Shown here one piece after another: positions 2-63,787 of a stretch of 64,000 nt of DNA. The notes under the pieces were generated by a model that searched no databases, was not told the DNA's origin, and saw only the letters and a program-made list of their open reading frames with translations. The translations under genes were made by a program, and so were the position numbers. Source of the DNA: Butyrivibrio fibrisolvens 16/4 (GTDB lineage: Bacteria; Bacillota; Clostridia; Lachnospirales; Lachnospiraceae). Location of the stretch: the NCBI GenBank assembly GCA_000209815.1, contig FP929036.1, forward strand, positions 477,340 through 541,339, written 5' to 3'. The stretch's first letter is position 1; each line of letters begins with the position of its first letter.

Positions 2-678
2 TCTTCCGAAAAGATTCCTGCTGTTAAGATGGATTTAGATATTGTTTATGAAGACGAGGATATTATTGTGATTAATAAGCCCGCTGGGCTGCCTATACAT
101 CCTAGTCTTAATCACTATGAGGATTCTTTGGCTAACGGGCTGGCATATTACTATGAGCAGCAGGGCAAACCATTTATATTCAGATGTGCTAATAGATTAG
201 ATAAGAACACTTCTGGGCTAACGGTTATTTCCAAGCACCTTGTCAGTGCCAATATCCTTTCTACGATGGTTAAGAACAGAGAATTTCACAGAGAATACTA
301 TGCCATCGTTCGTGGTACTTTAGAGCAGCCTGAAGGCACTATAGATGCACCAATAGGCCGAGTAGATGATTCTATTATTACAAGACAGGTGGATTTCGAA
401 AATGGTGAAAGAGCTGTCACCCACTACAAAGTTATGGACGAAAAAAATGGGCACAGCCTGGTTTCAATTCATCTTGAAACCGGTCGTACCCATCAGATTC
501 GTGTGCATTTTAAATATATTGGTCATCCATTGATTGGAGACCATCTTTATAATCCTGATTTTGAGTATATGCAGAGACAGGCGCTACATTCCCATAGGAT
601 TGAGTTTGTGCATCCCATAACCAAAAAGCAATGGAGTTTGTGGCTCCATTGCCTAATGATATGCAAAGAATATTTTAA
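2..678 (+). CDS. RluA-family pseudouridine synthase, 5' end outside window, frame broken near 3' end
   Basis: This is an rRNA/tRNA uridine isomerase of the RluA family. The reading frame is open from base 2, so the true start, and probably an N-terminal S4 domain, lie upstream of the window. Visible family motifs are the segment VINKPAGLPIHP, the catalytic block RLDKNTSGL (Asp is the nucleophile) and ETGRTHQIRVHF. As written, the last 19 residues (after ITKK, from QWSLWLHC) do not look like the family. The overlapping +1 frame reads MEFVAPLPNDMQRIF and stops at 676-678, which is a normal RluA ending. One extra A in the A5 run at 623-627 joins the two frames. As written the frame runs to 682. 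It converges with the J-domain gene, whose stop lies a few bases away. Substrate position is unknown. Confidence 0.85.
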
Positions 679-684
679 GTAGCC

Positions 685-1149
685 TTAATTCATCTGAGCC
701 TTAAGGTCTTCGTATTCTCTATTGATTTCAGCTACCGTAGCTGTATCGCCAGCGTCCCCATCCGGATGATAAATCTTAATAAGGTCCTTGTAACGCTTTT
801 TAAGAGCCTTTTTATCAGAAACACCAGAGAAGAACATCTCACCCTGGACGACATTATCCGTGGTGGTAACGCCGTAGCTGTACTCTTCCTGGACATTGGA
901 CTGAACATGCTCGTAGAACTTTTTCTTGCGTTCAAACTGCTTTTTATCATCAGCAAGCTGCTGAGTTTCGCGAATGAGCATTTCCCATTTCATCTCAAAC
1001 TGCTTTTCCTGCTGCTCAAGTGTGCGAATTCTCGCATCAACTTCTCTTTTTTCTTTTAATAAATCATTCCATGCTTTTTCTAACTCAAGCTGTCTATCTT
1101 CAAGTGCCTGCATGTCGATTTTACCTTGACATGTGCGTTCTTTTGCCAT
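685..1149 (-). CDS. Coiled-coil protein with C-terminal J domain
   Basis: A 154-residue protein. Residues about 10-95 are charged and heptad-like (many E, K, Q, L), predicting a coiled coil. The last 45 residues contain a J-domain core: ALKKRYKDLIKIYHPDGD with the HPD tripeptide that stimulates Hsp70 ATPase, followed by the helix EINREYEDLKAQM. The zinc-finger and C-terminal domains of DnaJ are absent, so it is a DnaJ-like cochaperone rather than DnaJ. I place the start at MAKERT because GGGAGAG lies 5 bases upstream; a longer frame to 1203 lacks such a site. It follows the GH13 gene on the same strand with a 116-bp gap. The client is unknown. Confidence 0.7.
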   Translation of the reverse strand: MAKERTCQGKIDMQALEDRQLELEKAWNDLLKEKREVDARIRTLEQQEKQFEMKWEMLIRETQQLADDKKQFERKKKFYEHVQSNVQEEYSYGVTTTDNVVQGEMFFSGVSDKKALKKRYKDLIKIYHPDGDAGDTATVAEINREYEDLKAQMN

Positions 1150-1265
1150 ACTAACTCTCCCACTAATTAAAACTAAACATTCTGTTGGGGGATGTTCGCC
1201 CAACTTTTAATAAATTATATCGTAAATTCAATTAGCTTGTAAATTAGAAGAATGGGCTAATATTT

Positions 1266-3299: not shown

Positions 3300-3341
3300 A
3301 TGAATACCCCTCGCTGATTAGATAATATATTTTTAGATAGT

Positions 3342-3370
3342 AAAAAGACAGCAACGATCGCTGTCTTTTT
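3342..3370 (-). terminator. Rho-independent terminator after ftsH
   Basis: Perfect inverted repeat AAAAAGACAG / CTGTCTTTTT with a 9-base loop. Read on the minus strand the right arm ends in a T5 tract, followed by ACTATC. It lies between the ftsH stop (3513) and the GH13 start (3299), separating these units. The symmetric A/T ends could make it work in both directions. Confidence 0.8.
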
Positions 3371-3512
3371 AGGAGAAGGTATTTTTACTATGGGGTTAGT
3401 AAAAATTATATAATGTATTGGGGGGTTTTTACGATGTTTATTATATGACCCCGCAACACTCAAGTGTGCACAAACATAACAAAAGCTCTACCCATTTTTT
3501 GTGCATATTGCA

Positions 3513-5392
3513 CTACTCACCCCAATTAATACCCTCGACAGCGACGCCATCAAGGATTTCTTCGGTGTTCTCCTGCTTTGGAGCATCACCAAATAATGCC
3601 TCGAATTCATCCTTACCAATCTTTTCTTTCTCTAATAATAGATTAGCACATTTATGAAGAATTGACTCATTCTCTTTTAAAAGTTTCACAGCTTTTTCAT
3701 AACATTCATCGATGATTGCCTTAACCTCATCATCAATGGCCTTAGCTGTGGCCTCTGAATATCCCTTTGTATGAGCTAAATCTCTTCCGATGAAGACTTC
3801 TTCCTCGTCCTCGCCATAATTGATCATACCGATATTCTTGGAGAATCCGTACTTTGTAACCATATTTCTAGCAGTCTGTGTAGCCTGCTTGATATCCTGA
3901 GATGCACCTGTAGTAACATCATCAAAAATAAGCTCCTCCGCTACTCGACCACCCAATGAAACGATAATATCCTGAAGCATCTTGCCCTTTGTATTAAACA
4001 TTTCATCATTTTCATTTATAGGCATGGTATAGCCTGCTGCACTTGCTCCAGTGGGAATAATGGATACTGAATAAACAGGTCCAACATCAGGAAGCACGTG
4101 GAATAAAATAGCATGTCCACTCTCGTGATAAGCAGTGATTTTCTTTTCCTTATCGGAAATAACTCGGCTCTTCTTTTCTTTACCGATACCAACCTTTACA
4201 AATGACTTTTTAATATCATCGTGAACAATATACTGTCTGTCCTGGCCTGCTGCAAGAATAGCCGCCTCATTGAGAAGATTCTCCAAATCAGCTCCAGTAA
4301 ATCCAACAGTTGTCTGAGCAATCTGATGTAAATCTACATCTGAGCCAAGCATTTTATTAGCAGCGTGTACCTTAAGAATTTCTTCACGCCCCTTAACATC
4401 TGGACGACCAACATAGACCTTTCTATCGAAACGTCCTGGACGCATAATTGCGTGGTCCAAAATATCTACACGGTTTGTGGCTGCCATAACGATGATGCCT
4501 TCATTAACACCGAAACCATCCATCTCTACGAGAAGCTGATTAAGTGTCTGCTCGCGCTCATCGTGGCCACCGCCCATTCCAGTACCACGTCGACGTGCTA
4601 CGGCATCTATCTCATCAATAAATACGATACAAGGCGCGTTCTGTTTTGCCTCTGCAAAAAGATCACGTACACGGCTGGCACCAACACCAACAAACATCTC
4701 TACGAAATCAGAACCTGAAATAGAGAAGAATGGAACGCCTGCCTCACCTGCAATAGCCTTTGCAAGAAGTGTCTTACCTGTGCCCGGAGGGCCTACTAAA
4801 ATAACACCCTTTGGAATACGGGCACCAAGCTTTGTATATTTCTTAGGGTCTCTGAGGAAATCTACAAGCTCTTCTACTTCTTCTTTTTCTTCATCAAGAC
4901 CAGCTACATCCTCGAATCTTGTGTGAATATCCTCTTTTGTGCTCATCTTGGCGCGGCTCTTACCAAAGTTCATCATCTTGGCATTAGCACCACCACCTGC
5001 ACTCTGGGCATTCATCAAAATCATAAAGAGAATGAATACTGCACCCAAAACAATAAGCATAGGTAAAAGATCAGATAACCAGCTATCGTGAGGGATATCG
5101 CTAAGAGTATAGGAAATATTACTCTCTGCTAAAGTCTGCTGTAATTCATTTACATCTGATACATATAATGTAACTGTATCGCCGTTTTTAGTTTGATGCT
5201 TGCGGCGCCTGTTGGCACCTCTTCGTTCTGTGTAATGTTCACAGAAGTAATCTTTTCATTTTTAATGGCAGTCTTAAGTTCCGCCATAGAATATGTGGCA
5301 TTTTTGTTGCCCATGCTTGTGTAAAGAATAGCTAAAACCACTGCGACAAAAATACCATAAATAATCATTCCTGAAGCTCTGTTTTTCTTCAA
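3513..5392 (-). CDS. ftsH: ATP-dependent zinc metalloprotease FtsH (frame broken once)
   Basis: Membrane-anchored AAA+ protease that degrades misfolded membrane proteins and selected regulators. The N-terminal part (5392 to about 5185) carries the first membrane helix ([17 protein letters not shown]). The rest holds a second helix ([14 protein letters not shown]), Walker A GPPGTGKT, Walker [10 protein letters not shown], the second region of homology RPGRFDRK and the zinc site HESGH. The frame breaks in a T5 run at 5185-5189 (A5 on the coding strand). With six A the sequence continues as [18 protein letters not shown] and the whole reads as 626 aa, normal for FtsH. It is the last gene of tilS-hpt-ftsH, 10 bp after hpt, a classic Firmicutes order. 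Confidence 0.95.
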
Positions 5393-5401
5393 GGCATCCT
5401 C

Positions 5402-5926: not shown

Positions 5927-7281
5927 TTCCATTTCCTCCATAAACTATCTCTAATACGCGAGTGGTATTATTAGAAATTTTATAATATTCGCTGATTCTA
6001 TATCCAACCACCCACATTACGTGGCTACCATCGCATACCAGCATAATGCTGTCTCTTTTGTGACGAGGTATTTTTTCATCCACAAAATAATCCTGAATAG
6101 ATTTATGATTTCCTGCAGAATCAATAGTCAGATAATCCCCCTCAGCACGGGTTCTTATAACAATATTATCCGATATTTTATCACAATCAAACCATTTAGT
6201 ATAGCTTTCAGTAGGGTATTTCATGCCCGGTTCAAGGTCAAATTCACGGTATGAAAATGTACCCTGTGTTTCCTCCTCAGAGGCCTCATCCTGTACATAT
6301 AAATGCTCATAAGAAATAATCAAGGTCTTTTTATATGGTAGCTGAACCTGACGTTCCCCGTCCTCCTGGAGAAGGCCTAAAATGCTTTCTATATGAACAG
6401 CACTAACATCCTTTTGATTTGGCATAAAGCTGCTAAGATATTCCTTTAGCGCCTGACTGGCAATAACCTTTGGTGCAGTAACGAATGCTCTTTTTCTAAG
6501 TTTATTGCCATCTTCTCTGGATATTTCTAAAAGCCCGTGGGCCTCTATAGAAATATAATCCGCAACCTCTGTCAGTCTGTTACACATATCGGCAATATGC
6601 TCCAAGGCCTTAGAATTAATTTCTGAAAGTTCTGGTAAAATATTGTGTCTTATTCTATTTCTATCGTAGCACACCATTGAGTTGGTCTCATCCACGCAGT
6701 ATGAAATCTCATTTTCCTGGATAAATTCCATAATCTCTGCCTTTGGAACCTCTAAAAGAGGTCTAATAATTCTACCTCTTGTTGGAGCTATGCCGCACAT
6801 TCCATCCAGGCCTGTACCTCTAGCCATATGGAATATAACTGTCTCTGCATTATCATCTGCATTATGAGCTATGGCAATCTTTACGTTGTCAGCCTGAGAT
6901 TCCTTTGATAGCTCATCTGCATAGGCCTCAAAAGCCTCGTAACGAGCCATTCTAGCCTCTTCTTCCTCAGAGCGGCCTGTTTCCTTAACCAAGGCCGGAA
7001 TATCAACTCTAACAACCTTTAAAGGTACCTGGTAATCCCTACATATGCTCTCTACATATGCCTGATCTTCATCAGCATCTTCGCCTCTAATACAGTGATT
7101 TACGTGAAGGGCGTGAATATCAAGATTATATTCCTCCCTAAGACCAAGCAACATAAAAAAAGGCATACAGAATCAGGTCCTCCAGATAAACCCAAGACCA
7201 CCCTGTCGCCTTTGTTTAACATGCTATTTTTTCTATAAATTCTCTAATCTTCTTTTTGTTTAAAAATGATCCAATTGTCAT
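5919..7281 (-). CDS. tilS: tRNA(Ile) lysidine synthetase TilS (two frame breaks near the start)
   Basis: TilS attaches lysine to C34 of the CAU-anticodon tRNA(Ile), changing both codon reading and charging. The PP-loop motif LGLSGGPDSVC is present in the DNA at about 7170-7215 but is out of frame with the rest. Adding one base to the A7 run at 7155-7161 joins it to FFMLLGLREEYNLDIHALHVNHCIRGEDAD. A second one-base deficit in the T6 run at 7227-7232 links the upstream segment KKIREFIEKNSMLNKGDRV. The repaired protein is 454 aa from ATG 7281, overlapping the end of divIC by 38 bases; a start at ATG 7223 is the alternative. The C-terminal TilS domain is intact and runs into hpt. Confidence 0.92.
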
Positions 7282-7557
7282 GTGTCAATCCAAGTTTCTG
7301 GGAAGCCTCATTTTCAACATATTCATCACTTCCCACATATTCTTCCTGTTCCTTGAGCTGCTGACTCTTTTCATTAGCTGCATCCAGCTGTGTCTGGAGC
7401 GTTTCTTCTTTCTTTTTGAGCTCTTCGTTTTATCGTGAAGGCGCACAATCTGAACGGTCATTACTCCAATCATAAAGAGCATGATAACAGCTACGTATAT
7501 TCTACCTGTAGAGGTTTTCTTTCGTCTTCCTACTTTTCTTCTCTTATTTCTAACCAT
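7244..7557 (-). CDS. divIC: DivIC/FtsB-like septum formation initiator (frame broken once)
   Basis: Small bitopic cell-division protein. The N-terminus is very basic (MVRNKRRKVGRRKK), followed by one membrane helix (IYVAVIMLFMIGVMTVQIV) and then a coiled coil. As written the frame leaves the family after RLHDK, giving a basic unnatural tail. One extra base in the T4 run at 7428-7431 gives NEELKKKEETLQTQLDAANE, then EEYVGSDEYVENEASQKLGL and DNWIIFKQKED, a textbook DivIC ending of 104 aa with stop at 7244-7246. It lies 3 bp downstream of rqcP, matching the yabO-divIC order of Bacillus. Confidence 0.9.
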
Positions 7558-8357: not shown

Positions 8358-8488
8358 CCAAAAACCCCAAAAACCCCCGATTTATAAGGGTTTTATGAAA
8401 TATTACAAATTTCTGACACTATTTTTAACTATAATTACCATTTACAAACCCTTGATTTTCTAGGAAGTTCACAACTTTTTCACACAAA

Positions 8489-9735
8489 TTAGTTCATTAA
8501 GTTGCTTATCAGGTCGGAAATCGTTGATAAATAATCAACTTCGTAGTCATAATCATTCTTAATTGAGCTACCTGCAGTCTCCTCCTCAGCACCATTTTCA
8601 GACTCATCTGTAACATTTTCGTTAGGAGTTGCATTGTCATAATTTTCTTCTACAGTGGAGGTTGTTCCACTTCCATCCTCCGCCTCCATCTCCAATGTGA
8701 TTTCTGCTGATTCAGAATTAACTACCAAGATCTTCTTCCAAGCTTTATATCCTGCACATTTAACCACAAGCTGATGAGCGCCATACTGAACCTTCTGTGG
8801 CTCCGTTACATCCACAGATTTGCCATCCAGATATACAAAGGTATCCGGCACCGTTACAAGGAATGTAAGCAGACAATAGGAAGGTCCCTCCCCCTTCATA
8901 GAATCCAAATTCACCAAAACATTCTCATCCCTGTGAACTGTAATCTCCTGGGAACCGCCCCAACCATTGTTTGCTACAGTTAATAGATATGTTCCTTCCG
9001 GCACCTCAATGGTCTCATTTCCATTTACCATTGTTACTATCTTATCTCCGATAAAAGCCATTGAACCGTCAAACACCGCTGTGTTCACAAGACTTATATA
9101 GCCGTGTCCTGTGGTGATTGCAATGGATATAATTTCCTTATCCTTACCGATTACAGTAATTGCATCGTCCTCGCCGATTGAATCCACCAATATTTTCATA
9201 TGATCTGAATAGACCTTGGTCTTATCCGTAATCTTGTACTTGTGGCCATCTATAACCATTAAATTGTGAGATGTATCTATGGCATATTTTTAATATCCTC
9301 GTACATCCAAACATCTGCTGATTTTTGCACCTGACTCAGTGCCCCAGAAGCTGGCAGCAACTCACCTATAGAAACAACCGAACCCGTAGTGAATTCAGCC
9401 CAGGTGTCATTGCCACCGTATTTATTTAAGAATTTTGTAGTCATATTATATGAATAGCGAATCTGCTGATCCTCGCTAAGGGAATACAGCGCAATAGTCT
9501 CATCCACCATATCCAGGTTTTCTACTATATATAAATCAACCTGTTCGGTCTCAGCCTCCGCCTGATTATCAGTTTCCTCCACCTCACCAGTCTCCTTTCC
9601 TGCGTTTTGAATGGCAGAGCCTGTATAATTGGTGACAGTGGCATTGTTAGCATGGCTACATCCACAAAATGCAGCCACACAGATAACTGACAATAATATT
9701 AAATTAGACCATTTTTTTGTAAAATCCCCACTCAT
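8489..9735 (-). CDS. PEGA-domain lipoprotein (frame broken once)
   Basis: A probable membrane-attached surface protein of 415 aa after repair. The N-terminus has a hydrophobic signal (LILLSVICVAAF) and a lipobox-like CGC. Residues about 30-60 are acidic and low complexity. The C-terminal half carries PEGA-type beta repeats (IEVPEGTYLLTVANNGWGG, TFVYLDGKSVDV, YGAHQLVVKCAGYKAW), followed by an acidic Asn/Thr/Glu-rich tail. As written the frame stops at IKNMP. One extra base in the T5 run at 9287-9291 gives IKKYAIDTSHNLMVIDGHKY and joins both parts. PEGA domains are linked to cell-envelope proteins, but the function is unknown. It lies 20 bp downstream of cca. Confidence 0.75.
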
Positions 9736-12629: not shown

Positions 12630-14911
12630 TTATAGATATAACTCCTCGAACTTCTTCACCGGAAGCGGTTTATTGAAATAGTATCCCTGAAGATAATCAG
12701 CACCGGTACCCTTCAGATAATTCAGCTGATCTTCGTTTTCTACTCCCTCAATTACAACCATCATTCCAAGTGCCTTTGCAAGAGTAATGATTGTATTTAC
12801 AATCTTTCGACCTCTATTGATATTCTTGTCCATAGTAAGGAATGCCATATCCATCTTCAAAATGTCTGCTGGAACTTCCTTTAACATATTAAGAGATGAA
12901 TAACCACTTCCAAAATCGTCAATCTCGATAAGGAAGCCATACTCCTTTAAGGAACTAAGTATATCTATCTGACGCTCTTTTTCCGTCATAAAGATTGATT
13001 CTGTAATCTCCAGCTTTAATCTGGCTGGATCTACATGATATTTTCCACGTAAGAAACCAGTGTCTCGTATATATCAATATAATAGAAATCCTTAACTGAT
13101 ATGTTTACTGAAATAGATAGCTCCTCGTGGTCCAGGGTAGACCAATAAGCAAGTCTTCTAACAGCCTGTTCCCAGATGTATTGATCCAGTTTATATATAT
13201 AGCCCGTCTTTTCCAGCAAAGGGATAAATGACGGTGGAGCTATAATTCCCTTGTCTGGATGAATCCAGCGGACCAAAGCCTCGCAAAGAGTAGTTCTTCC
13301 ATCAACAGTAACAACCGGCTGCAGGAACATAGCAAACTGACCGGTCTGAAGAGCAGTCTCGAACTCTGCCAAAATCTTTTGCTCGCTCATATACTCTCTG
13401 CGGAGCATATCTCCATAGTAAGCAATAGAATTTTTGAAGCTGTCCTTGATAGAATCAATGGCGAGGAATGCTCCATCACACATTCCTACAATAGGTACAT
13501 CTCTATCGAAAATATCATAAACACCTGCCAGAATAACCATACGATACTGGCTATTATCCAGAGAATGACTTATCTGATTCATCCCCGTCATAAACAGCTC
13601 CTCGCTGTAGCGACTCTTAGGTAAAAGAACAGCAAAACGATCTGCCTCAAGTCGGGCAAACGCTGCTCCATTTGTAATCTTATCCCTGATAGTGTCTGCA
13701 CATCTAACTAAAAGCTCATCGCCCTTATCTACACCAAACACATCATTTATCAGCTTAAATCCCTTGATGTTACAGCAAACCATTACATAATCGATTTCTG
13801 GATTTTCATCAAGGATACGTCTGGCCTCTTCATAGAAGCTGTCTCTATTAAGAGCGCCTGTAAGAGCATCATGTGTAGAGCGATATTTCTCCTCCTCGTA
13901 TGCCAAGAAATCCCCTGTTACATCATAGAATGAGAAATAACATCCACAATAAAAGCCCCTCTTGTCGTAAACCTTATTAAAGTGAACATCAAAGCGATAT
14001 TCTTCACCATTGAAATTATAAATTTCACTCCAGTTTGTATTGGAAATGGAATTTGTCTCTCGCCCTTCTCTCCACATTTTAAAGCGATTTTCAATCATCT
14101 TTTTATCGCCACTAGGAGAAAAGATTCTATTGGCCTGCTGATTTGAATATATGCAGTTATCATTCTCATCAAATGAAATTAGAGCACATTCCATTCTCTC
14201 GGTAATAGTGGTAAGCATATATTCCACGAAGGTTTTTGGATTGTAAAGCAACGTATAGTAGCTTACAAATAATGCTGCGATGGAATAGAGACAAATGGAA
14301 ATATCTACTGGATATCCAAAGAACAAATAGGCAATATCCAAAAGAATGATTCCTACAAAAATAACCAAAATTGATAAATATCTATTTCTGTGGAAGCCGC
14401 TTGTAAGATATGATTTCTGGATAAAAATCATAATTATCATAGCCACCAGTATGTAGCAAAAAACCAGGTGGACTACATAATAATCATTGATTATAAATCC
14501 ATAGAAATGATCCCCATCAAGACTGTTATCAACAAGGTAAAATCCGTGATGCCACTTGTAATTGAAAAACAGACTCACATTATCCAGCACTGCAATAGTT
14601 GTGGTGATTACCGTGGATGCATATTGCTCTGCCCAAATCTTTGTATACTGTCTGGCATAAAACATGAAGGTAATCAGAATCCAGTCTATGGCCATGAAAT
14701 AAAATGCATAAGCAAACTCTGCTTCCCTGGTATTATTGGCTGAAATTGCACGGCTGTAAGAAAGGCAGGCAAATATACCAACTGTAAGCAGTTGCATAAT
14801 GGAGATATTTAGTTTGTTTTGTTTTATCGTGTGCTTCGTTGCAATGTAGACCCCACATACCAGCATAATAAACGCTGTCAGCACGAAGACCGATACATAA
14901 AGCTTAATCAA
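12630..14911 (-). CDS. Membrane GGDEF/EAL cyclic-di-GMP protein (frame broken once)
   Basis: 760 aa after repair. About 7 membrane helices fill residues 1-225 (sensor-type N-terminus), followed by a PAS-like segment (about 230-330), a GGDEF domain (about 345-490) and an EAL domain (about 510-755). The GGDEF signature is degenerate (ARLEADRFAVLL), so cyclase activity is unlikely. The EAL domain keeps EALVRW and DDFGSGYSSLN, so c-di-GMP hydrolysis is plausible. The frame stops early at YVENIM. One extra base in the T4 run at 13041-13044 gives YVEKYHVDPARLKLEITES and restores the missing ELTES-like region. It is the last gene after the kinase, regulator and RluA genes, 21 bp after the RluA stop. 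Confidence 0.88.
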
Positions 14912-20230: not shown

Positions 20231-22405
20231 TCATTGAATAAAAACATCTGCGTCGCCTACCATGGTGACGCATTTTTTTGCTCTGGTAATAGCCGTATAT
20301 AAAATGTTTCGGTTCATCAACATTTTAGGGCCGTCCATAATCGGCATCACCACAGCTGGGTACTCGGACCCCTGTGATTTATGAATAGTGATTGCGTATG
20401 CCAGCTCCAATTCATCCAGACTGGCAAAAGGATAAACCACCTGTCTGCCTTCTTCAAACTCAACAGTAACTGACTTTGACCAATCATTAATCTCTTTTAT
20501 GATGCCCACATCACCATTGAATACGCCTAAGCCCTTTTCGATAGTGATATTGTAGTTTCCTTTCACTTCCCACTCTAGCTGATAATCATTGCGAATCTGC
20601 ATAACCTTGTCGCCTTCGCGGAAAAGACGGGTATCGCCTTTCCATTCATTCTTGCCCGGTGCTTCTGGGTTTAGGAAACGCTGGAGAATAGTGTTAAGAC
20701 GCTCCACTCCAATCAATCCTTTTCTAGTAGGAGTAAGTACCTGAATCTCACTGATGCCAGCATCAACATACTTTGGCATCTTATCTCGTACCAATGTGAG
20801 CATAACATTAATTATAGTATCAGCATCATCTCTCTTCAGGAAAAAGAAGTCCTTTGATTTGTTATCTAGTACCACATGCTCTCCCTGATGAATCTTATGA
20901 GCATTCATGACAATATCACTTTCCTGAGCCTGACGGAAAATCTTTTCAAGGGTTACAGATGGGAATTTCCCTGATGCTAAAATATCCTTTAATACATTTC
21001 CTGGGCCGACACTAGGAAGCTGGTGCTCGTCACCAACTAAAATCAATCTCGTTCCTGGGGCAATTGCCTTTAGCAAAGCATACATTAAAGAAACATCCAC
21101 CATAGACATCTCATCAATAATAATGACATCACACTCTAGTGGATTGTCCTCGTTTCGCTCGAACTTGGCAAAGCTGGTAACATCATCGTCATCATCTCCC
21201 ATTCGGCCGTTAACTTCAAGCATTCTGTGTATAGTGCGAGCCTCATAGCCTGTAGCTTCACTCATACGCTTGGCCGCGCGGCCTGTAGGTGCTCCAAGGA
21301 AAATGCTGTAACCTTCCTCCTCGAAAATGTGAATCATAGTGGTGATGGTAGTCGTCTTTCCTGTACCAGGTCCACCTGTAAGAACAAATAATCCCTTCTC
21401 CATAGCAGCTATTACAGCATCTTTTTGGAGCTCATCCAGCTGAAAATCTCCGTCCTTTTCTATACGTCGAATAACCTTTTCAAGATCTGCTTTGTCCACC
21501 TTGTAGGTAAGATTCAGCTCTTTAAGCATCCCCGCTATAGCCTCTTCCATACGATAAAAGGTTCTGGAATAAATCTGTCGATTTCCATCAACGTCACGCT
21601 TAATTATCAGCTTTTTCTCCATCGCCAGATTCATTATCTGAGCTTCCACTGATTCCTGATCCACCTTAAGCAAATCCACAGACATTTCCACAAGCTTTTC
21701 TATCGGAAGATAGGTGTGACCATAGCTTGCCCCTTGAGTAAGGACATACATAATACCACCCTTGATTCTAAACTCCGAATCAACCTTTATTCCCACCTGA
21801 CTGGCAATCTCATCAGCTGTTTTAAAACCGATGCCTGCCACCTCATCAGCAAGCTTGTAAGGATTGCTTTGGATTACATTGTAAATATCGTTTCCAAATC
21901 GATTATAGATTTTGATTGCCTTATTTCCATGTAGACCAAATCTATCTAGGAAAATCATAGCGTTTCTAATATCCTTGGCACCAACAATCTGGTCTGATAT
22001 CTCCATGGCCTTGTTTAAGGAAATTCCCTTTACCTCAGCAAGACGCTCCGGCTCTTCCTCTATTATGCGGAAGGTATCATCTCCAAACAGCTTTACAACT
22101 CTGGCTGCAAGCTTAGGGCCAATTCCTCGGATAGCTCCTGAACCTAAGTATCTTTCCATAGAGGCAGCATCTGTAGGAGCTACAGCTTCATAGCTTACCG
22201 CCTTAAACTGTTTTCCATATGTAGGATGATCCACATAATCGCCTCTCAGTAGGAGATTCTCTCCCTCTCCCACTGTAGGAAACAACCCTGTGCAGGTAAT
22301 CAGAAATTCATCTACCACAAAATCCAGCACTGTATAGCCATTATCCGCGTTTCTATATATTATATTTTCTACGTATCCTGTTATTTCTTCCATGGGTTCA
22401 ATCAT
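20231..22405 (-). CDS. recD2: RecD2-type SF1B DNA helicase
   Basis: A 724-residue 5'-3' helicase not associated with RecBC, involved in replication-fork and mismatch-related repair in Firmicutes. It has an OB-like start (ITGYVENIIYRNADNGYTVL), helix-hairpin-helix repeats (IRGIGPKLAARVVKLFG, EVKGISLNKAMEIS, VAGIGFKTADEIA), Walker A TGGPGTGKTTTITT, Walker B IIIDEMSMVD, the RecA2 motifs (LPSVGPGNVLKDIL, LTPTRKG) and the C-terminal IHKSQGSEYPAV and NRNILYTAITRAKK. Start choice is uncertain (22405 or ATG 22393), as neither has a strong ribosome site. It converges with the HD-GYP gene. Confidence 0.95.
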   Translation of the reverse strand: MIEPMEEITGYVENIIYRNADNGYTVLDFVVDEFLITCTGLFPTVGEGENLLLRGDYVDHPTYGKQFKAVSYEAVAPTDAASMERYLGSGAIRGIGPKLAARVVKLFGDDTFRIIEEEPERLAEVKGISLNKAMEISDQIVGAKDIRNAMIFLDRFGLHGNKAIKIYNRFGNDIYNVIQSNPYKLADEVAGIGFKTADEIASQVGIKVDSEFRIKGGIMYVLTQGASYGHTYLPIEKLVEMSVDLLKVDQESVEAQIMNLAMEKKLIIKRDVDGNRQIYSRTFYRMEEAIAGMLKELNLTYKVDKADLEKVIRRIEKDGDFQLDELQKDAVIAAMEKGLFVLTGGPGTGKTTTITTMIHIFEEEGYSIFLGAPTGRAAKRMSEATGYEARTIHRMLEVNGRMGDDDDDVTSFAKFERNEDNPLECDVIIIDEMSMVDVSLMYALLKAIAPGTRLILVGDEHQLPSVGPGNVLKDILASGKFPSVTLEKIFRQAQESDIVMNAHKIHQGEHVVLDNKSKDFFFLKRDDADTIINVMLTLVRDKMPKYVDAGISEIQVLTPTRKGLIGVERLNTILQRFLNPEAPGKNEWKGDTRLFREGDKVMQIRNDYQLEWEVKGNYNITIEKGLGVFNGDVGIIKEINDWSKSVTVEFEEGRQVVYPFASLDELELAYAITIHKSQGSEYPAVVMPIMDGPKMLMNRNILYTAITRAKKCVTMVGDADVFIQ

Positions 22406-50491: not shown

Positions 50492-53400
50492 CTATTGCTC
50501 CTTTTTATGCTGTTCTTTCTCCGCATACATTCCCTTATCCGCTGCATCCAAACAGTCTCTTAAGTTCCCATAGTCAGAGTAAATTGCCATTCCGATAGAA
50601 AGCTGTACCGTAATAGAAACCCTGGCCATCTGATTAGCGCGATTTAATTCAGCTAGTATTTCAAATTTTATGCTTTCCAGTTCAGCTTCGTTTTTGTGTT
50701 GATGAAGAATAACAAATTCATCACCGCCTAAACGAAATACTACGCTATTTTCAGATGCAACCTGCTTCAGGATATGACTTATTTTCGTCAGTACTATATC
50801 TCCATAGTCGTGGCCATATAAATCATTGATCTGCTTGAATTTATCAATGTCAATCATCAGTAATGCAAAATCAGTTTTGTCTGTTTTATACTGATTCATG
50901 AATTTTTCTACTATCTCTGAAAAAGCACGGCGATTGTATAATCCTGTAAGAGCATCTGTCATAGTAAGCAATTCTAGCTTCTCTTGTTCCTTTAGCTCAT
51001 CTGTGACATCCTTGAAATAACCCACCAATCCTACTATTTTTCTATCTACTACATATGGCTGTTTGCTGGCAGCTATCTTTCTTACCTTACCTTTTACAAT
51101 GCACTCACCGCGCACATTTTCTATGGTTTTTCCGTTATTTATGACGTCTAGCTCATCTTTTTAAAGGCATCCGGATTAATATGCCATCCCATATCCTCAT
51201 CAGTTTTTCCTATTATTTCCTGTACTGACTGGAAGCCATAATAGTCAAGAAACATTTGGTTTGCACCAAGGAATCTTCTCTCTTTATCCTTCCAGAAAAC
51301 GCCTACCGGAATCAGCTGTAAGATGTTTTCAAATGTAGGATTAATTCTTTTAGCAATCTCAGTGTTTGTATTATCTGTGCTTCTACGCCTCTGGGTCTGG
51401 CTATTTGACATACGTCTGGCTATTTCAGTAGGAGCCTCGTTTACACAGCAAAGAAGACAATCATTATTTTCAAAATGCATTATAGAAAGGGTTACCATCT
51501 TCCAGACATAATTGTGTCTCGAGTCTAGAATCCTGTAAAATCCAACTGTTGCGCCGCAAGGTTCTTCTGCAATTCTTTGTTCTATGGTGTCCATATCGAA
51601 CATCTGCCTGAAATATACCCTGTCATCTTCATGAACCAGTTTCTCGCATATTCCGTTTATAATATCCGATGATTTTCTTTTTCCTTCATCAAACTCCTTG
51701 TAAATACGGCTGTCACTCAAATATATATTTTCATAGAAATCATCATGTATTCCAAATAAATCCACGCTCTCATATATAGAAAACAGGGAGCGGCTAATCG
51801 CTGTAATTCTATTATCATAATTTGAATTTCTAAAGCGTGACAACAGTCTGAATGAAATCATATAGGCATCTCGGACATCGCCTTTAGATCCACCCATGTG
51901 ACGAACTCTCATATTTACAATTCGTCCATTGTTTATGTAGTCCATACTCTCTGATTTGTGCTCTTCTTTACTATGGGCACATATATCTAAAAAGTGATGA
52001 TATTGTAGCCATCGAGTATGTTCCCTATTTAGCATAAGCTCAACATCAGCCTCACCCTTATACCCAAAGAGACTTATGGTATTCAAAAATTCTTCGTTAG
52101 TATATTTAAAACTCCAAACACCAGCTTCGTGCACCACTACCGCAAGAGGAAGCGCACTGTCATCATCTGGATGTTCAACATTTTGCAGAGGATTCTGTCT
52201 TAAAATATCAATCTTTCCGATTTCATCATTAAAAAGACGTTCCTCATAGGTCTCCAATGTTCTTCCGTTCTTTTTAATACTATCCAGACCTTCCAAATAT
52301 GGCATTGGCTTTGCAATTAGGTATCCCTGTATCATTTCGCACCCAATGCTCTTCATAAAATCAAACTGCTCCTGAGTCTCCACGCCTTCGATTAATGTGT
52401 GGGCGCCAAGGTTTTTTATCAGGGAAACCATATGCTTAAGAATGATTTTGCTATTTTCAGATACCTCAAAATCTTTTAGAAAATCCATATCGATTTTTAC
52501 CAGGTCAAACTGGTATGTCTTTAAAAGATTAAGCGAAGAATAACCGCTGCCGAAATCATCCATCCATACTTCATAGCCATTCTGACGAAGCTTGGTAACC
52601 TGATGCATAATATTTTCCGTATTTTCCATCAGAGCGCTTTCCGTAATCTCTAAATGGAATAAGTTTTTAGGGCATCTATACTGGCGAATCTTTTCCTCAA
52701 AAAACTCTGGTAGATTCATAACCTCAAAATCAATTCTTGATAGGTTTATAGAAACGGGAACAGCCGGCATCTTCCCCTCAACCTCGTTATGATATCGAGA
52801 AAATACTTCATCGATTACAAACATATCTATCTTATGAATCAGTCTGTATTCCTCCAGAACTGGAATAAATTCATTTGGGTACACAACGCCCTTTATTGGA
52901 TCCTGCCAGCGTACCAATGCCTCCCAGGCGCAAACCTCCCCTGTAAAGGAGCGTACTATCGGCTGATAATAGACCTTGATATATCGCTTCGCAATGGCCT
53001 CATCCAATCTATCCAGTATATCCTGCTTACGCTGAAGACTTCCTCCCAATTCCTTATCGTAAACACGATAACCAACATCGTATTTTTCTTAATGCTAATA
53101 CAGGCCATACGAGCTTTATCGCAGCATTTAATTACATCCTTCTCCTCACCGTCATAGATGTAAATGCCAGCCTTCAGCTCGATACTGGCGCTTTTTCTTA
53201 TTAATTTAATTCTCTCGCGAACAGATTTTATTGTTTGAATAACCTGAATTGTATTGACACAGGCCACAAAATGGTCACCTGTGAAATGGGCGAGCAACTG
53301 GCCTTCAAATTCGTCTTTTAGAATATATGCAATGGATACTAATAGTTCGTCACCTATCTCATATCCATAGTTTGCATTAAAGATTTTAAAATTTTCTACA

Positions 53401-53900: not shown

Positions 53901-54240
53901 TTACTTTTCTCCTAACAAAAACTTAGCATAGGACAATAGATGTTTTTGTTTTCTTTATCTGCAGCACGGAATAATTCAACAACCTGACTTTCCTCTTCTG
54001 AAAGGTAATATCTATATTTACCTTCACCTTTTTCTGTTTCGTCTAGCTCAAACAATTCTGAAGATGAAATATTTAATACTCTGCAAATCGCGGGAATTTT
54101 GTCTGCACCCGGGTTAAATTTTTTATGCTTCCAATCACTAATGGTGCTCTCAGAAATGCCTGTAAGAGCAGAAAATTCCTTCTGAGTCATTCCCTTCGCC
54201 TGCAATAATTCAAATATTTTTCATAAACCTGTTTTTGCAT
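53901..54240 (-). CDS. XRE-family helix-turn-helix regulator (frame broken twice)
   Basis: A 113-residue DNA-binding protein after repair. The helix-turn-helix is clear: GMTQKEFSALTGISESTISDWKHKKFNPGADKIPAICRVL. The repaired N-terminus is MQKQVYEKIFELLQAKG from ATG 54240, with AAGGA upstream, requiring one base more in the T5 run at 54217-54221. The repaired C-terminus is KENKKHLLSYAKFLLGEK, requiring one base more in the T5 run at 53943-53947. Without these changes the gene has no ATG start and a shortened, unnatural tail. Targets unknown. Confidence 0.8.
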
Positions 54241-54301: not shown

Positions 54302-54794
54302 TTACCAATTAACTGACAAGTTTTTATTTAATTGATACCAATTTTTAGAACCGCCAAGTGCAAGCCATAACCTTCCATCTTCATTAAGGAGAATGTTTTT
54401 ATCATCTATGATTGTTTGTCCTAGCAATACACTAAGAGACTCAAGAAGTATTAAAAGCTCCTGCGAATTACTGTATTTGAACTTTTTTGCAAATAAATCG
54501 ATATCAGAAGCCATCCCATTTTTCTCACAATATTCTGCCAGTTCTTTTACAGTCCTAACGTTTTTATCGCTAATATATTTTAAATAAAAGCTAACCTCTT
54601 CATCGGCAGGCAAAAAGAAGTACTAAATATTCCTCCAGTCAACTCATAATGATCAATATCAAGGAATTTATCGAATTTAACCAAATAGATTTACCTGATT
54701 TACGTGGGCCACATAGGTTAACGTTTCTACAATATAATGATTGCAGATATTCTTCACTAAATACACTTTTCATAATCATTCCTGGTTTACTCAT
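54302..54794 (-). pseudogene. Remnant of a P-loop ATPase gene
   Basis: From ATG 54794 (GGAGAA upstream) the reading gives MSKPGMIMKSVFSEEYLQSLY and then a P-loop, NLCGPRKSGKSIWLN, before a frame break. Another frame then gives KFDKFLDIDHYELTGGIF. A third frame supplies a 100-residue helical C-terminus (SFYLKYISDKNVRTVKELAEYC, FAKKFKYSNSQELLILLESLS, NILLNEDGRLWLALGG). The A5 run at 54612-54616 explains one break; the other is less clean. The ATPase core after the P-loop is much too short, so this is a decayed, internally deleted gene. Confidence 0.55.
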
Positions 54795-56240: not shown

Positions 56241-57641
56241 CTAAAGTAATCACAGCCTGTATATTTCCTGAATAGCTGTTATTTACCATTCCATAGGTAG
56301 TTACCAATGTAGGATAAATTGCATATTTAGTCTTTGTCGCCTTTTGAAAATCTTGGATTTTCTCCCTAATATCAGAATCCACTTCTGCTGTTACAGTGTA
56401 ATCAGTATTTGAATACTTCATTTCGCAAAGATTTATTACCTGATCCTTTCTTACAATCAGCAAATCAATCTGCGCACCTTTTATTCCTTTATCTGCGTCT
56501 GCCTTGCAATACCAAGAATTTACTTCTGTCTGGACACCAGAAATCCCAAGCTTTTGCTTCATCTGATTTACATGCTCCAAACAAACTCTTTCAAAAGCTA
56601 AACCCTGCCAAGTATTTATTGAAGGCGTATTTATTTGATTTGTCCAAAAATGCTCATCTGTTGGTTTACTAGAAAGAAACTGATAATAAAATAATGTGTA
56701 ATTATCAATGAGCTGATAGACAGCATTTTTCTTTTTCATACCATACGCATCATATTTTCTTATGAATCCACAGCTTTCCAACTCTTCGAGTCTGGTGGTC
56801 AGTTCCCCCGAATTAGCAAGACCAGAATTCTTTATAATTTCCTCACGGGTCATACCAACCTTTTTAGTGGCCAGCGCGCTAATGATTTTGATGTAGTTTT
56901 CTGGATTTTTAAAAATAGAGGCATATAAATATTTGAATTCATCGACCAATGGTGCATTTTTTGCAAATAAAATCTGATCAATATTCTGCTGTATGCTTAA
57001 CCCCTTCTCAAGAAATCCCCAATAAAAAGGTATTCCTCCAAAGACCATGTAATAATGCAAAATCTGGTTTCTTGTGAAAGCCATACCTTTTGATTTCACA
57101 TATTCTTCGCACTCAGCCAAAGAAAAGCTTTCCAGATGTATCTGCTCTGTCAATCTGTTATAAAGCCCACCTTTGTTGTGCACTACCTTTGATAACATCC
57201 AAGAAGTAGCGGATGCGCATACAATAAGAACAACATCTCTTCGTGCTGAAGCCCACCCATTCCAGAAATTCTCCAAAGCCACCATCAAATCACTATTCTG
57301 TGTATCCATCCATGATAGCTCATCAATAAAAATAATCTTCTTTTTCTCGGATGACGAACGAATTACATCCTTTAAATCTTCAAAAGCTTCAAGCCAATTC
57401 TTACGTTTTTTGTTGGATTTCCTCCAGCATCCCTTATTGAAGCCTCAAATGCAAAGAGCTGTTCCTTCAATCCCCCCTCTGACAGTCCAGAATGCTGAAA
57501 TGTAAACCTATAATTAAAGACTTCTCTTATAAGGAAAGTCTTTCCTATTCTTCTACGTCCGTAAATGGCTACAAAATGAGAATAATCATCCTGAATTGTG
57601 CTGTTTAGAATATCGATTTCTTGTTTTCTTCCAATTATCAT
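56224..57641 (-). CDS. ATPase of the ATPase_2/DUF234 type with nuclease-like tail (frame broken once)
   Basis: 472 aa after repair. The N-terminal P-loop domain (ATPase_2, PF01637) has IYGRRRIGKTFLIREVF and Walker B IIFIDELSWMD. A winged-helix region (LTTRLEELESCGFIRKYD-like) follows. The C-terminal DUF234 part has GLAFERVCLEHV, QIDLLIVRKDQVINLCEMKY, which reads as a PD-(D/E)XK nuclease-like core. The frame breaks in the T6 run at 57406-57411; seven bases give NPTKKRKNWLEAFEDLKDVI. I choose ATG 57641 since GGAG lies 9 bases upstream. These proteins are patchily distributed and often sit in mobile or defence-rich DNA. Role unknown. Confidence 0.8.
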
Positions 57642-57645
57642 ATCG

Positions 57646-57664: not shown

Positions 57665-57687
57665 ATTATTTTAATGTCTTTAAGCTA

Positions 57688-57716: not shown

Positions 57717-57728
57717 CCGTAAATGCGC

Positions 57729-57776: not shown

Positions 57777-57849
57777 TGGTTTGAAATTTTGTTTTTTTAT
57801 AAACGCCTTTTGAGGACCAGTCAATATGTACATCTTCGACATCAATAAA

Positions 57850-59870
57850 CTATAGCACATCCTTAATATCTGTCATCCTTCCAAAAAATGTGTCTTCGAT
57901 AACAAGTCTTTTAAAATCTTCATCATCTATTTGTATTTTTCCTATGAGAGATAATAATCCTTCATCTAATTGCTTATTAATTATACGCAACTCTTTTGGT
58001 ACAATTTCAAGATAATCTTCTACATATTCTATTATGCCCTGCTGCATTTTCTGGGCACATTTAATATTCTCAGGGCTTCTAGTTTCTTTTGCATATACAG
58101 GATTACCACACTCGTCAAATTCATCCACCGATGGCATTGGTGATGTGAGTATTGTTTCTAAGATGTAATAATTATCAAATATTACACTCCTATCTCGCTC
58201 CTCCTCCGTATAAAATGACTCAATTTCCACGCCTTTATCAGCCATAAATTCCGGCTCTAGCTGTAGGAAATATAGCCCCTTAAGTTGTTGTTTCATTATC
58301 TTTTGGAGGAATAGTTGAGTTGTTCCTTTTGCGACAAAGTCAAACACAGCAGTTGTGCCATCGCTAAGATTTAGCTTTGATATATATTTTTGATAATTCA
58401 ATCTTTGGAATTTTGCCTTATTAATAATTGCTGCATTTCTATCCTCACCTTCATTTAAACTTATGCCAAATCGTGCAAGTAAGCTTTCTTCCTGGCTTCC
58501 AAAAAACTTCATGCTGTCGACATAAGCTATGTCATCCTCGTTTTCGATACCTGCACGTATTGCAGATGTGCGGGAAGTTAGGAAATATACCGAATGCACT
58601 TCCGAATCGATTCGCTCAAATATTTTCTTTAGCAAATATCCATCTCTAGCGCATAACAAAGCATTTTCAGCACCAATTTGTTTTATCTTATCTTCAAACC
58701 AAAAGGCAAAATCTAAAACCATTGGCCCACAGATGAAATATCCTATGTCTTTTGCGTTATTTATTGATATCTTTTTGTTTAATGTTTCAAACTGGAATGG
58801 ATTAGAAAAAAATTTTGATAACGCTAATCCCACCTTCACATTATCGGAGTAGGAATTAATATTCGATGATAATCCAAAGGCATCTACTTCATCAAATATA
58901 TCTTTCACTCCGTATATACGATAGTTATTAAGACCATACTCTGAAGCCTTCTCTACATCTACATATTCATCATCGCCTATATGAAGAATACTTTTGTCCC
59001 TATTGTCATTTGTAACTATTTCAAATAATTCATTAGCTTTAGAAACATTATATTCGCTGGATACATACACTTTATCAATGTGTTCATATCCCATCAGCGA
59101 TAACAATTCCTCAATCTGCTGTTTGCTATAATATGTATCTGTGGTTACTACAATCCTCTTTCCTAAAGTAGCTATTTCAGATAATAAATCCTTCATACCA
59201 TCGCGAGTATACATGATAGACTTATCAATTTGCCACTCTATTTCGGCTAATTCATTGGAAGAAAGATTACATTCTGGATGCTGACTAATCACCCAATCAT
59301 AAATATTACTGAGTTTTGGAGCTGCAGTCTTTGACAGCTCTTTTTCCGCAGCAAGTCTTAGCTTTGAGAATTCAGGTATATAAATTTTTTGCTCGCGCAA
59401 TTTAGCATCAATTAGCTCGAATATATCTGTATAATAAAGCACTTTTCTAGCTACTAATGTATCAAATAAATCAAAGCTAATTACATCCGACTCTTCCACT
59501 TTCGCCAATAAATCAGACTTCGTATATACGTTAATATTTCTAAAATCATATGATACTTTTGTCTCAGCTAACAAATTATTTCCACGAACATCATAAACAA
59601 GTATACCGTTAGCTTGGCATACTTCTTTTATTCTTTTTGCTATTACTTTGCACGAGCCTGGGCGAGCTACAACTATAATAGCTTCCACCTTGGAGTCCAC
59701 AGCCTGCTGCATGGTAATGATAGGATATCCAAAGGCATCACCAGATTTCTTAAAACCATCTAAAAGTCCAACTATTTTAGGCCCACTTCTCCACTGGGAA
59801 ATGAGCCTTTCTGTTTCGGTGCCAAGACCGTAGAGTGCTATGGTTTTATATTCATTAATTTTTTTTCCAT
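57850..59870 (-). CDS. HAD-superfamily surface-glycan cluster protein (frame broken at start)
   Basis: 673 aa after repair. The N-terminus (about 1-100) is a nucleotide- or sugar-binding Rossmann-like region: KTIALYGLGTETERLISQW, KIVGLLDGFKKSGDAFGYP. The HAD domain has motif I VISFDLFDTLVARK and later TTDTYYS and HIGDDEYVDVEKA. A second part of about 330 residues (YFICGPMVLDFAFWFEDKI, LLCARDGYLLKKIF) is typical of large HAD proteins in polysaccharide loci (COG5610-like). The first in-frame ATG as written is 59712. Adding one base to the T8 run at 59859-59866 lets it start at ATG 59870 (MEKKINEYKTIALYG). Substrate unknown. Confidence 0.75.
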
Positions 59871-59875
59871 GCAGA

Positions 59876-60388
59876 TTAATCTTTATGTTTATTTCTTATA
59901 TCTGATATGACATTGCTCCATTTTTTATTACAATCTATAAGTATTCCCCTAACAGGAGCCTCTTTACATATCGCTATATCTCTCTCTTTATCACCTATAG
60001 CAATACTTTTTGACATATCAATATCAAAATCTTTTTGTGCCTGCCAGAATAGTCCGGTGTTAGGTTTACGACAGTTACACTCACATCGATATTTTTTCAC
60101 TAAAGCCTTTGGATGATGAGGGCAATAGTACGATGCTGTAATATTTACTCCTCTAGACTTCAAATCATCCTTCATCCATCGGTCTATTATTAGATAATCA
60201 TCTTCTGAATAGAATCCTCTCGCGATTCCTGATTGATTTGAAATTACAATCAATAAATACCCCATATCTTGTAATTGCTTTAGGGCCTCGACAACGCCTG
60301 ATATATATTCAAAGTCCTCAATTTTATATAGGTAGTCTTTGTCTATATTTATTGTGCCATCTCGGTCTAGAAAAATAGCCTTATTCAT
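59876..60388 (-). CDS. gmhB: D-glycero-manno-heptose-1,7-bisphosphate 7-phosphatase
   Basis: A 170-residue HAD phosphatase. Motif I AIFLDRDGTINIDKDYL, motif II VISNQSGIARGF, the zinc-binding CPHHP..CECNCRKPNTG and motif IV IGDKERDIAIC are all present. It removes the 7-phosphate to give heptose-1-phosphate for activation by HldE. It overlaps the gmhA stop by 8 bases, as expected for a coupled operon. Confidence 0.9.
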   Translation of the reverse strand: MNKAIFLDRDGTINIDKDYLYKIEDFEYISGVVEALKQLQDMGYLLIVISNQSGIARGFYSEDDYLIIDRWMKDDLKSRGVNITASYYCPHHPKALVKKYRCECNCRKPNTGLFWQAQKDFDIDMSKSIAIGDKERDIAICKEAPVRGILIDCNKKWSNVISDIRNKHKD

Positions 60389-60950
60389 AATCTTCCTCTG
60401 CTATTTCACAGATAATATGACCAATCATGATATGAGATTCTTGTATTCTCGCTGTATTATTTCCAGGAACCACAATAGCTATATCTGCCACTTCGTTAAT
60501 CTTTCCACCATCCTTACCGAGCAACCCAATAGTAGTAGCACCATGTCGTTTTGCCTCCACAAAAGCTCGATAGACATTCTCAGAATTGCCACTAGTGCTT
60601 ATACCAATCAAAGCATCTCGTTCATGAACAATTCCACTAAGAATCCTTTCAAAGACTTGCTCATAACTATAATCATTGGAAATCGCAGTTAAGGCAGCTA
60701 TATCTGCATTTAGAGATAGCGCTGGTAATGATTTACGTTCCTTTTGAAAACGTCCTGATAGCTCCGCCGCAATATGAATAGAATCCGAAGCAGATCCGCC
60801 ATTTCCGCATAGAAATACATTTCCACCATTTTCAAAGGTTTTCTTCACTTTTTGGCCCGCTTTATTAATTAATTCAATCAAAGTTGTATCATTGAGAATG
60901 TTTTCTTTTACTTTAATACTTTCTATTATTCTATCCTCTACAATCCCCAT
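60381..60950 (-). CDS. gmhA: Phosphoheptose isomerase
   Basis: A 189-residue SIS-domain enzyme converting sedoheptulose-7-phosphate to D-glycero-manno-heptose-7-phosphate, the first step of nucleotide-heptose synthesis. Marks: NVFLCGNGGSASDSIHIAAELSGRF, LIGISTSGNSENVYRAF, ARIQESHIMIGHIICEIAE. Length is standard. It begins 2 bases before the hldE stop region ends, in a tight operon. Confidence 0.93.
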   Translation of the reverse strand: MGIVEDRIIESIKVKENILNDTTLIELINKAGQKVKKTFENGGNVFLCGNGGSASDSIHIAAELSGRFQKERKSLPALSLNADIAALTAISNDYSYEQVFERILSGIVHERDALIGISTSGNSENVYRAFVEAKRHGATTIGLLGKDGGKINEVADIAIVVPGNNTARIQESHIMIGHIICEIAEEDYE

Positions 60951-60952
60951 GG

Positions 60953-62382
60953 CTAGCTCCTTTTCATTTTCTCAACGATTCTTGTTGTAGACTTTCCTTC
61001 AACGAAATCTATGATTTTAACTTCGCCTCCATTTGCTATTACATAATCAGCACCAGCTATTTCTTCTGGTTTATAATCTCCACCCTTTGCTATTATATCA
61101 GGTTTGATTTTCTCTATAAGACTAGCCGGCGTATCTTCTTTAAATTCCACTACATAATCCACAAAATCCAATGCAGCAAGTACAGCCATTCTATCTTCGC
61201 AACTATTAATTGGCCTAGATTTACCCTTTAATCTTCTAACAGAATCATCGCTGTTAACTCCAACAATAAGTATATCTCCAAGTTTTTTTGCATTCCTCAA
61301 ATATGTAATATGGCCAACATGAAGGATATCAAAACAACCATTGGTAAAAACTATTTTCCGACCATTCATTTTTGCTCTTTCGATTGGAGACAATCCACCT
61401 TCGTTATAGTAATCTAACACTCTAGCCTCATTTGAGCGTCCTGCTTCATGCATAGCTGCAAATACTTCTTCTGGATAAACAATGCTGGTTCCAACTTTAG
61501 ATACCTGAACTCCAGCTGCATAATTTGCAACAATCATAGCTTGCTCTATATCTGTGCCTTTTACTATTTCAGCTGCTAAATATGCTATTGATGTATCTCC
61601 TGCACCAGTTACATCAAACACTTCTCGTGCCATACTTTTGACCGAACTAATCATATTATTCTCATCTACAAGAATCATTCCATCAGCACCAAGTGTCGCT
61701 AGCACATATTTGCATTCCGCATCTTTACAAAGCTTTTTTGCTGCTTCAATAGCTTTTTCTACTGTGTCTGTTGGTTTGCTAGAAAGTTCAGAAAGTTCTT
61801 TACGATTTGGTTTTAGTATTGTAGCTCCTCTATACTTTTTAATATTCTTATCTTTAACGTCAATAATAATTGGAATCTTATTATCGTTTGCAAATTTAAT
61901 AATTCTCTGTGTTGACTCTTCGGTAAGAAATCCTTTTAAATAATCAGATAATACTACTAATCCAACTTCTTCAATTACAGTTGAAAGATTATTTAATAAT
62001 AAGTTTATACTCCCTATATCAACACCAACTATATCTTCAGTATCTACTCGCAAAATCTGCTGGTTGCCAGGTCCTATATATCTTAGTTTTGATATTGTCC
62101 TATAATCACTTTTGTAAATTATATAATCAATTTCAACATCTGATTTCAAAAGCTCATTTGTTAGTAATCGACCATAGTCATCTTCACCAATAAGTCCTGA
62201 GAAAATAGTTTCCACACCAATAGCAGCGACATTTACAGCAACATTTGCCGCTCCTCCTGGTGAATATTTACGTTTCCCCTTTTCCAAAAAACAGGCACCG
62301 GTGCTTCTGGCGATATTCTATTAACATCACCAAAATGATATGAATCTATCATTGCATCGCCAATTACTAGTATTTTTTTCAT
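60953..62382 (-). CDS. hldE: Bifunctional heptose kinase/adenylyltransferase (frame broken once)
   Basis: 476 aa after repair, the normal HldE length. The PfkB-type kinase half starts [20 protein letters not shown] and has [18 protein letters not shown] and [15 protein letters not shown]. The C-terminal half is a nucleotidyltransferase: [25 protein letters not shown] and [21 protein letters not shown]. The frame breaks in the A6 run at 62286-62291; seven bases give [19 protein letters not shown]. The start at 62382 has AAGGAGAAGG upstream. It makes heptose-1,7-bisphosphate and then the activated nucleotide-heptose. Confidence 0.93.
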
Positions 62383-62399
62383 TCCTTCTCCTTAATTGC

Positions 62400-63787
62400 C
62401 TATTCTTTAACTATTTTTTCTATTTCAGTCATTACCATATCTATTGTAATTTTATCCATACATCTTGGATTAATTTCGCCCTTAGGACAAACAGATAGCC
62501 AATCAGCTGTTGTCCATTCACAAGACTCACACGCAGAAGAATTGATATATATATTTTCAGGGTATTCATGATTCTCTGAAGACGTAGGCCCCATTAAAAC
62601 TATGCTTTTCCCACCAACCATATGATTTACATGAATTAATCCACCATCATAGTCAATATGTATCAGTGCATGTTTTAAAACAGTTGCTATTTGCTCTAGA
62701 TTTGTTTTTCCATTTAAGTGTACGTCAGCAGGAATATCATCTTTTTCACTTACCTTCAATCCCACTTGCACTATTTTGATTTCAGGATATTCTGATTTAA
62801 TATATTTAGCTAATTCTTCCCACTTTCCAAATGACCACTCTCTAGTATTTGATTTATTCATATACTCATTATTCAGTCCAGTATTTAGCGTAATATATGT
62901 TTTAGCATCTAACCCAATACTATTAATGAACTCTTCCTCATTATGTCTCTCTATACAAATTTTAGTTTTATCTGAATCTGATGCACCCAAATCACCAAGT
63001 ACGTCATATGCCGTATGATATAATGTTCTTTCTTTTTGAATAAAAAATTTTTGGAGAGTTTTATGATAATCTCGCGCAGTATAAAATCCCCTATTATAAT
63101 TCTTTTGGCATAATTCTTTTAGTCTGAAGAAATAATCCCTTAGTCCTTCGTTTAAGCATGATAAACCATCTTCTGACACTGCTAATATTTCTGGAATAAT
63201 ACAAAATCGTAGAATAACCGTATAATTATTGAATAAGACCTTTTTGCTAAAATCGTCTATTGATAATATACTTACGAAATCATTATATTCCCTAAATATC
63301 AAAGCTGCGTCCACCATATTTGATTCAGAAAAATAGAGATCCACTTTAGATTTGTTTAATTCGTATTTACGAATTAACTTATCGATCCACATCTTCGCGA
63401 CTAATAAGTCACCAATGCCCCCATATATAATGATTGCAATAGAATCTGATGATAGTTCTGACAAAAACTGAAGCTTCTTTTTCTCAATCCACTCTTCGTC
63501 TGAGATAATGTCAAACGCATCCTGCAAATCTATGATTTTTTCTCTGCAAAAACCATTGCTTACCAACCTTTCTATAATCCCCGAAATATTTGATGGTGTC
63601 AGAACTATATAATCAAAATCATAATCATTAAAGTTTCTTATATCACGGATTTCTTCACCTAATACTCTTTTTCCAATTTTTTTGACATCTCCATCCGCAA
63701 CTCCAATCACTTCATAGCACTGATGAATCTCATATGAAGAAAATATGTAGTTATTTCCTGCACCATATACCACTATCTTTTTTTCAT
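62400..63787 (-). CDS. Family 9-like glycosyltransferase (heptosyltransferase-like; frame broken at start)
   Basis: 462 aa after repair. The N-terminus (KKIVVYGAGNNYIFSSYE, CYEVIGVADGDVKKIG) is a Rossmann-like sugar/nucleotide domain. The second part has GT9 features: IIIYGGIGDLLVAKMWIDKL, YITLNTGLNNEY, IKIVQVGLKVSE, HIDYDGGLIHVNHMVGGKSIVLMGPTS. Cysteines near the end (ACESCEW, LSVCPKGEINPRCM) fit a family subset. The frame as written begins with a GTG; one more base in the T7 run at 63778-63784 allows ATG 63787 (MKKKIVVYGAG). It is 17 bp before hldE, so heptose is a likely donor. Confidence 0.8.

Follow-up and report, generated by a model that had tools for sequence, protein, structure and literature searches.

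The frame-broken genes in the window, by which is meant the whole stretch of 64,000 bases analysed here (bases 477340 to 541339 of a one-contig genome of 3,164,379 bases, 3.16 Mb), are very probably artefacts, with A/T homopolymers recorded one base below their true length, more often in longer runs and above all where the consensus is locally poor. Homopolymer under-calling, named as the simplest cause by the first-pass annotation, stands because the one-base A/T losses are one-sided in the window, length-dependent, partly non-coding and local, because long A/T runs are depleted in the sampled part of the genome, and because the relatives are intact and selection on the broken genes is not relaxed. 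The genes are most likely intact in the living organism, and their apparent breaks most likely a data error and not biology. The short runs would have arisen during sequencing or base calling, probably of long reads, the probability of shortening would climb with run length, and low depth or missing polishing at particular places may have produced the patches.

The deficits, their sign, their length dependence, the non-coding cases and the patchiness were all observed relative to related genomes. The CCA-transferase protein of the window (GC about 40%) led to 15 loci of Pseudobutyrivibrio, a genus of rumen bacteria, at 82 to 88% identity (L009-L023), and these are the nearest named relatives. 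The comparison set consisted of these loci, four genomes with long matching stretches (G003, G005, G009 and G011) and G008. Reading frames of the relatives were searched against the window by tblastn, and at least two relative genomes had to show a break before it was accepted; L021 and G008, whose contigs have the same length, may count twice among the supporters. Since its contig is as long as that of G009, L010 was excluded as a reference in both the control and the window tblastn tests, and L010 and L014 in the comparison of DNA gaps. Rows with a single supporting relative were left out of the counts (minus-one/plus-one: window 7/6, G009 10/7, G005 4/9, G003 11/3, G011 5/6). Two window rows, 7230 and 7537, were removed since they lie on the strand opposite to the genes, and the run at 7227 was confirmed on the DNA instead. 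The sites, with run lengths as written in the assembly, are as follows.

623-627, plus strand: RluA-family pseudouridine synthase gene; A5, one base short against 2 relatives by tblastn and 6 in the DNA comparison
3342-3346, no strand: between genes; A5, one base shorter than in 10 of 10 relatives (15 of 15 in another comparison)
5185-5189, minus strand: ftsH; T5 (A on the coding strand), one base short against 16 relatives
7155-7161, minus strand: tilS; A7 (T on the coding strand), one base short against 16 relatives and by alignment
7227-7232, minus strand: tilS, N-terminal part; T6, one base short, with a DNA gap against 8 relatives and in 12 of 12 aligned relatives
7428-7431, minus strand: small protein gene upstream of tilS; T4, one base short against 16 relatives
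8381-8383, no strand: between genes; T3, one base shorter than in 7 of 7 relatives (9 of 9 in another comparison)
9287-9291, minus strand: gene with a weak PEGA-domain match; T5, one base short against 18 relatives
13041-13044, minus strand: GGDEF-EAL protein gene; T4, one base short against 16 relatives
20240-20244, minus strand: recD2, near the 3' end; A5 (T on the coding strand), one base short against 12 relatives by tblastn and 11 in the DNA comparison
27793-27797, minus strand: uvrA; T5, one base short against 5 relatives
51158-51162, minus strand: GGDEF/EAL gene, first site; T5, one base short against 4 relatives
53083-53087, minus strand: the same GGDEF/EAL gene, second site; T5, one base short against 4 relatives
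53943-53947, minus strand: Cro/C1-type HTH gene; T5, claimed short, no relative across the site
54217-54221, minus strand: start of an HTH gene; T5, claimed short, consistent only, with one weak relative (L111, 52% identity)
54612-54616, minus strand: gene without a family match; A5, claimed short
57406-57411, minus strand: ATPase_2/DUF234-type ATPase gene; T6, one base short against G003, G005 and G009
59859-59866, minus strand: gene downstream of the run; T8, start codon out of register with the body, consistent only, with G003 and G009 starting in register
62286-62291, minus strand: hldE; A6 (T on the coding strand), one base short against 2 relatives
63778-63784, minus strand: GT9-like gene; T7, start codon out of register with the body, consistent only, with L113 starting in register

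All 17 runs that the first-pass annotation had listed as one-base deficits are present at their positions. At 50% identity, tblastn showed ten of them to be short against 2 to 18 relatives each (623, 5185, 7155, 7428, 9287, 13041, 27793, 51158, 53083 and 62286); at 57406 (midpoint 57409) the three relatives were found at a lowered identity limit. With 7227, 12 of the 17 are thus one base short against at least two relative genomes and three (54217, 59859 and 63778) are consistent only, while 53943 and 54612 belong to neither set. Comparison with close relatives had been proposed as a check, and the relatives are intact at these 12 sites, which lie in 10 of the 13 genes said to be broken; the full 13 were not confirmed. 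The list was also incomplete, as it had missed the run at 20240 in recD2 and those at 3342 and 8381 between genes. The confirmed total in coding regions of the window, with recD2 included, is 13 sites in 11 genes. The 11 break midpoints given by tblastn on the gene strand (625, 5187, 7154, 7415, 9290, 13041, 20243, 27807, 51158, 53086 and 62282) are all minus one. The uvrA gene is split into two pieces that match positions 3-323 and 323-941 of the 943-position UvrA profile, the HldE profile match of the hldE piece begins at position 48, and all 5 relatives compared have one base more in the pure run at 53083. The small protein encoded at 7428 had no Pfam match and is presumably DivIC-like, judging by its position upstream of tilS.

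The claim that every deficit is minus one held at each of the 13 sites confirmed in the window (P = 2.4e-4, two-sided sign test) and failed elsewhere in the genome, where two breaks, L130:4370 and L148:5274, are plus one; the deficits are thus overwhelmingly short and not long, as under-calling predicts. The written run length is 4 to 6 bases at 12 of the 13 sites and 7 at the other. If the true length, which we infer, is set one base above the written one, the confirmed short calls amount to 0 of 585 runs at length 4, 2 of 208 at 5, 7 of 53 at 6, 3 of 27 at 7 and 1 of 2 at 8, a rate that rises with run length as it should under under-calling. Long runs are depleted as well: the 550.6 kb of own-genome DNA sampled from the 3.16 Mb contain 11 A/T runs of at least 8 bases against 39.9 expected from the rate in the relatives (P = 6.6e-8), a rate for which the G003 stretches L151 and L215 share 12.4 kb. 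Where cleanly aligned A/T runs of at least 6 bases in the relatives served as the starting point, 137 comparisons found the own run shorter 38 times and longer twice; in the relative-versus-relative control the corresponding numbers were 12 and 1 of 180. When own runs of at least 6 bases were taken as the start, the contrast was weaker, with 10 longer and 5 shorter runs in the relatives among 110 comparisons; in all three sets each site was counted once per relative, and the counts are not independent.

Non-coding runs are affected like coding ones, on the evidence of two sites. In the first 20.5 kb, comparison with at least four relatives was possible for 265 runs, and two of these, at 3342 and 8381, differ from all relatives compared; both are one base short and both lie between genes. 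The same treatment of 15 relative loci yielded a single unanimous difference, which is in L015 and amounts to two bases. Differences of both signs appear when fewer relatives support them.

Breaks of this kind are rare in the control genomes. With G009, G005, G003 and G011 as targets, tblastn at 55% identity detected no break in the 441 kb covered, and at 50% 618 kb yielded 5 rows, which mark 4 places (L218:10741, L220:13883 on both strands and L119:2918 plus-one; L233:14580 minus-one by remainder), compared with 11 breaks in 57.9 kb of the window at the same limit. One of these control rows, L220:13883, is a plus-one break in the relative G003 against three relatives. G008 as a target showed a single minus-one break over 55 kb, at L124:1359, which three relatives support. 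Elsewhere in the own genome, of which about 0.55 of the 3.16 Mb was sampled and the relatives cover part of the sample, the breaks are unevenly spread. No break was found in the 50.7 kb covered in three 20-kb stretches (L136, L144 and L147); L130 holds one plus-one break, L132 one minus-one and L134 one minus-one in 1.9 kb covered, the last being one and the same break as that of L189. L148, picked because a reference-free frameshift HMM had marked it, has seven breaks in 19.0 kb, of which six are minus-one and the seventh is plus-one. Within the window, only 1 of the 13 sites falls between 20.3 and 51.1 kb (P = 0.03, with limits set after seeing the data). Given this patchiness, with three 20-kb stretches free of breaks, a uniform error rate is the wrong description. 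The patchiness counts against the artefact reading, as do the two plus-one breaks outside the window, the minus-one break at L148:16714, which no run adjoins, the modest contrast of 10 versus 5, and the differences of both signs that appear at lower support.

The cluster at L148:2044-9965 (G000:C1 about 2846044-2853965), mostly minus one, lies about 2.3 Mb from the window. The plus-one break at L130:4370 (G000:C1 about 162370) stands beside a G7 run and is seen against all four relatives; it reflects either over-calling or a G tract that truly varies. The frameshift HMM was rejected for counting as too noisy: it also called shifts where neighbouring genes overlap, and in four control genomes its rate was 21.5 to 25.5 calls per 100 kb. 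Its minus-one to plus-one calls were 76:41 in 20 own stretches, 13:7 in the window and 70:63 in the controls together.

It is very unlikely that the short runs are real mutations of the strain, such as recent frameshifts from a mismatch-repair defect or the decay of dispensable genes. Such mutations would strike non-coding runs too, but tilS, uvrA, recD2 and hldE would all have to be broken in one cell, in one direction within the window and in patches. The broken genes also show no raised dN/dS, with 0.063 against 0.078 in intact genes for G009, 0.063 against 0.085 for G005 and 0.079 against 0.088 for G003 (nine broken genes for G009 and G005 and eight for G003; 15, 19 and 17 intact genes, respectively). 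Decay is not apparent in the broken genes, but breaks of very recent origin would leave dN/dS unchanged and escape this comparison. That essential genes are hit had been put forward with ftsH and tilS as examples. The ftsH argument was dropped: besides the window gene (3513-5392) the genome has an intact FtsH-like paralogue, a frame of 650 amino acids at G000:C1 about 234 kb (L001), labelled from its AAA match, so that the ftsH break need not be lethal and could be survived by a real mutant. The argument thus rests on tilS, which is essential.

That the short runs are real and that transcriptional slippage on poly-A or poly-T tracts restores the frames is extremely improbable. Conserved genes whose A/T runs lack a single base are what one would expect under slippage, and the first-pass annotation, which had offered it as an alternative, noted that most runs are A on the coding strand. 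This is so at 10 of the 13 confirmed sites but does not exceed the background (P = 0.13), and the strand bias was rejected as a sign of slippage; the other three are T runs on the coding strand. Slippage would further call for tracts of about 8-9 bases or more and for deficits confined to transcribed genes in need of rescue, but nearly all runs are far shorter, the breaks are patchy, and slippage does not explain the short runs at 3342 and 8381, which are intergenic and have no protein to rescue. The sections of the Escherichia coli and Buchnera study that bear on this point describe slippage insertions that rise exponentially with run length and report no restored frame (PMC5574713). In Blochmannia, for which slippage has been proposed, coding poly-A tracts of at least 9 bases number 114 to 153 according to the corresponding part of its description (PMC3017870), whereas the own genome has few runs of at least 8. 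As far as these accounts go, the poly-A frameshifts of Blochmannia and Buchnera resemble the present ones as single-base indels in A/T runs of conserved genes, but occur in reduced, AT-rich genomes full of tracts of at least 9 bases (PMC3017870; PMC5574713). The present genome, by contrast, has 3.16 Mb and a moderate GC content in the window, its affected runs are mostly 4 to 6 bases long, and non-coding runs are affected too. Equally hard to credit is the variant in which the short runs are real and confined to segments, and the proteins are still made through efficient slippage or frameshifting on runs of 4 to 6 bases. It would imply frame rescue on tracts much shorter than in any case known to us.

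Under-calling of homopolymers, the preferred reading, has close parallels. Such errors are described, in the portions of the reports that concern them, for a nanopore rumen assembly (PMC6785717) and for other long-read assemblies (PMC9262707; PMC12007338), where, as measured by IDEEL or Kastor, they are likewise mostly false deletions, many of them in A/T, that split genes while the relatives are intact; the errors found here differ from those accounts in being concentrated in patches of one contig. Automatic annotation would list tilS, uvrA, recD2, hldE and further genes as truncated, and counts of pseudogenes or lost genes in the species would come out wrong. A one-contig genome scored as 100% complete, as this one is, can still hold local patches of poor consensus.

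Copies of rRNA were considered as a translation-free test and rejected, as the own genome gave no 16S or 23S match; this absence means nothing, because both the own genome and the surroundings of rRNA genes in the relatives contain stretches of N. The own-genome N stretches lie in L133, L138, L140, L141, L143, L145 and L185, four of them being 2664 to 2686 bases long. A heptose gene cluster with GmhB-like, SIS-domain, HldE and GT9-like members occupies a lower-GC stretch of this Lachnospiraceae genome at window positions 59876-63773.
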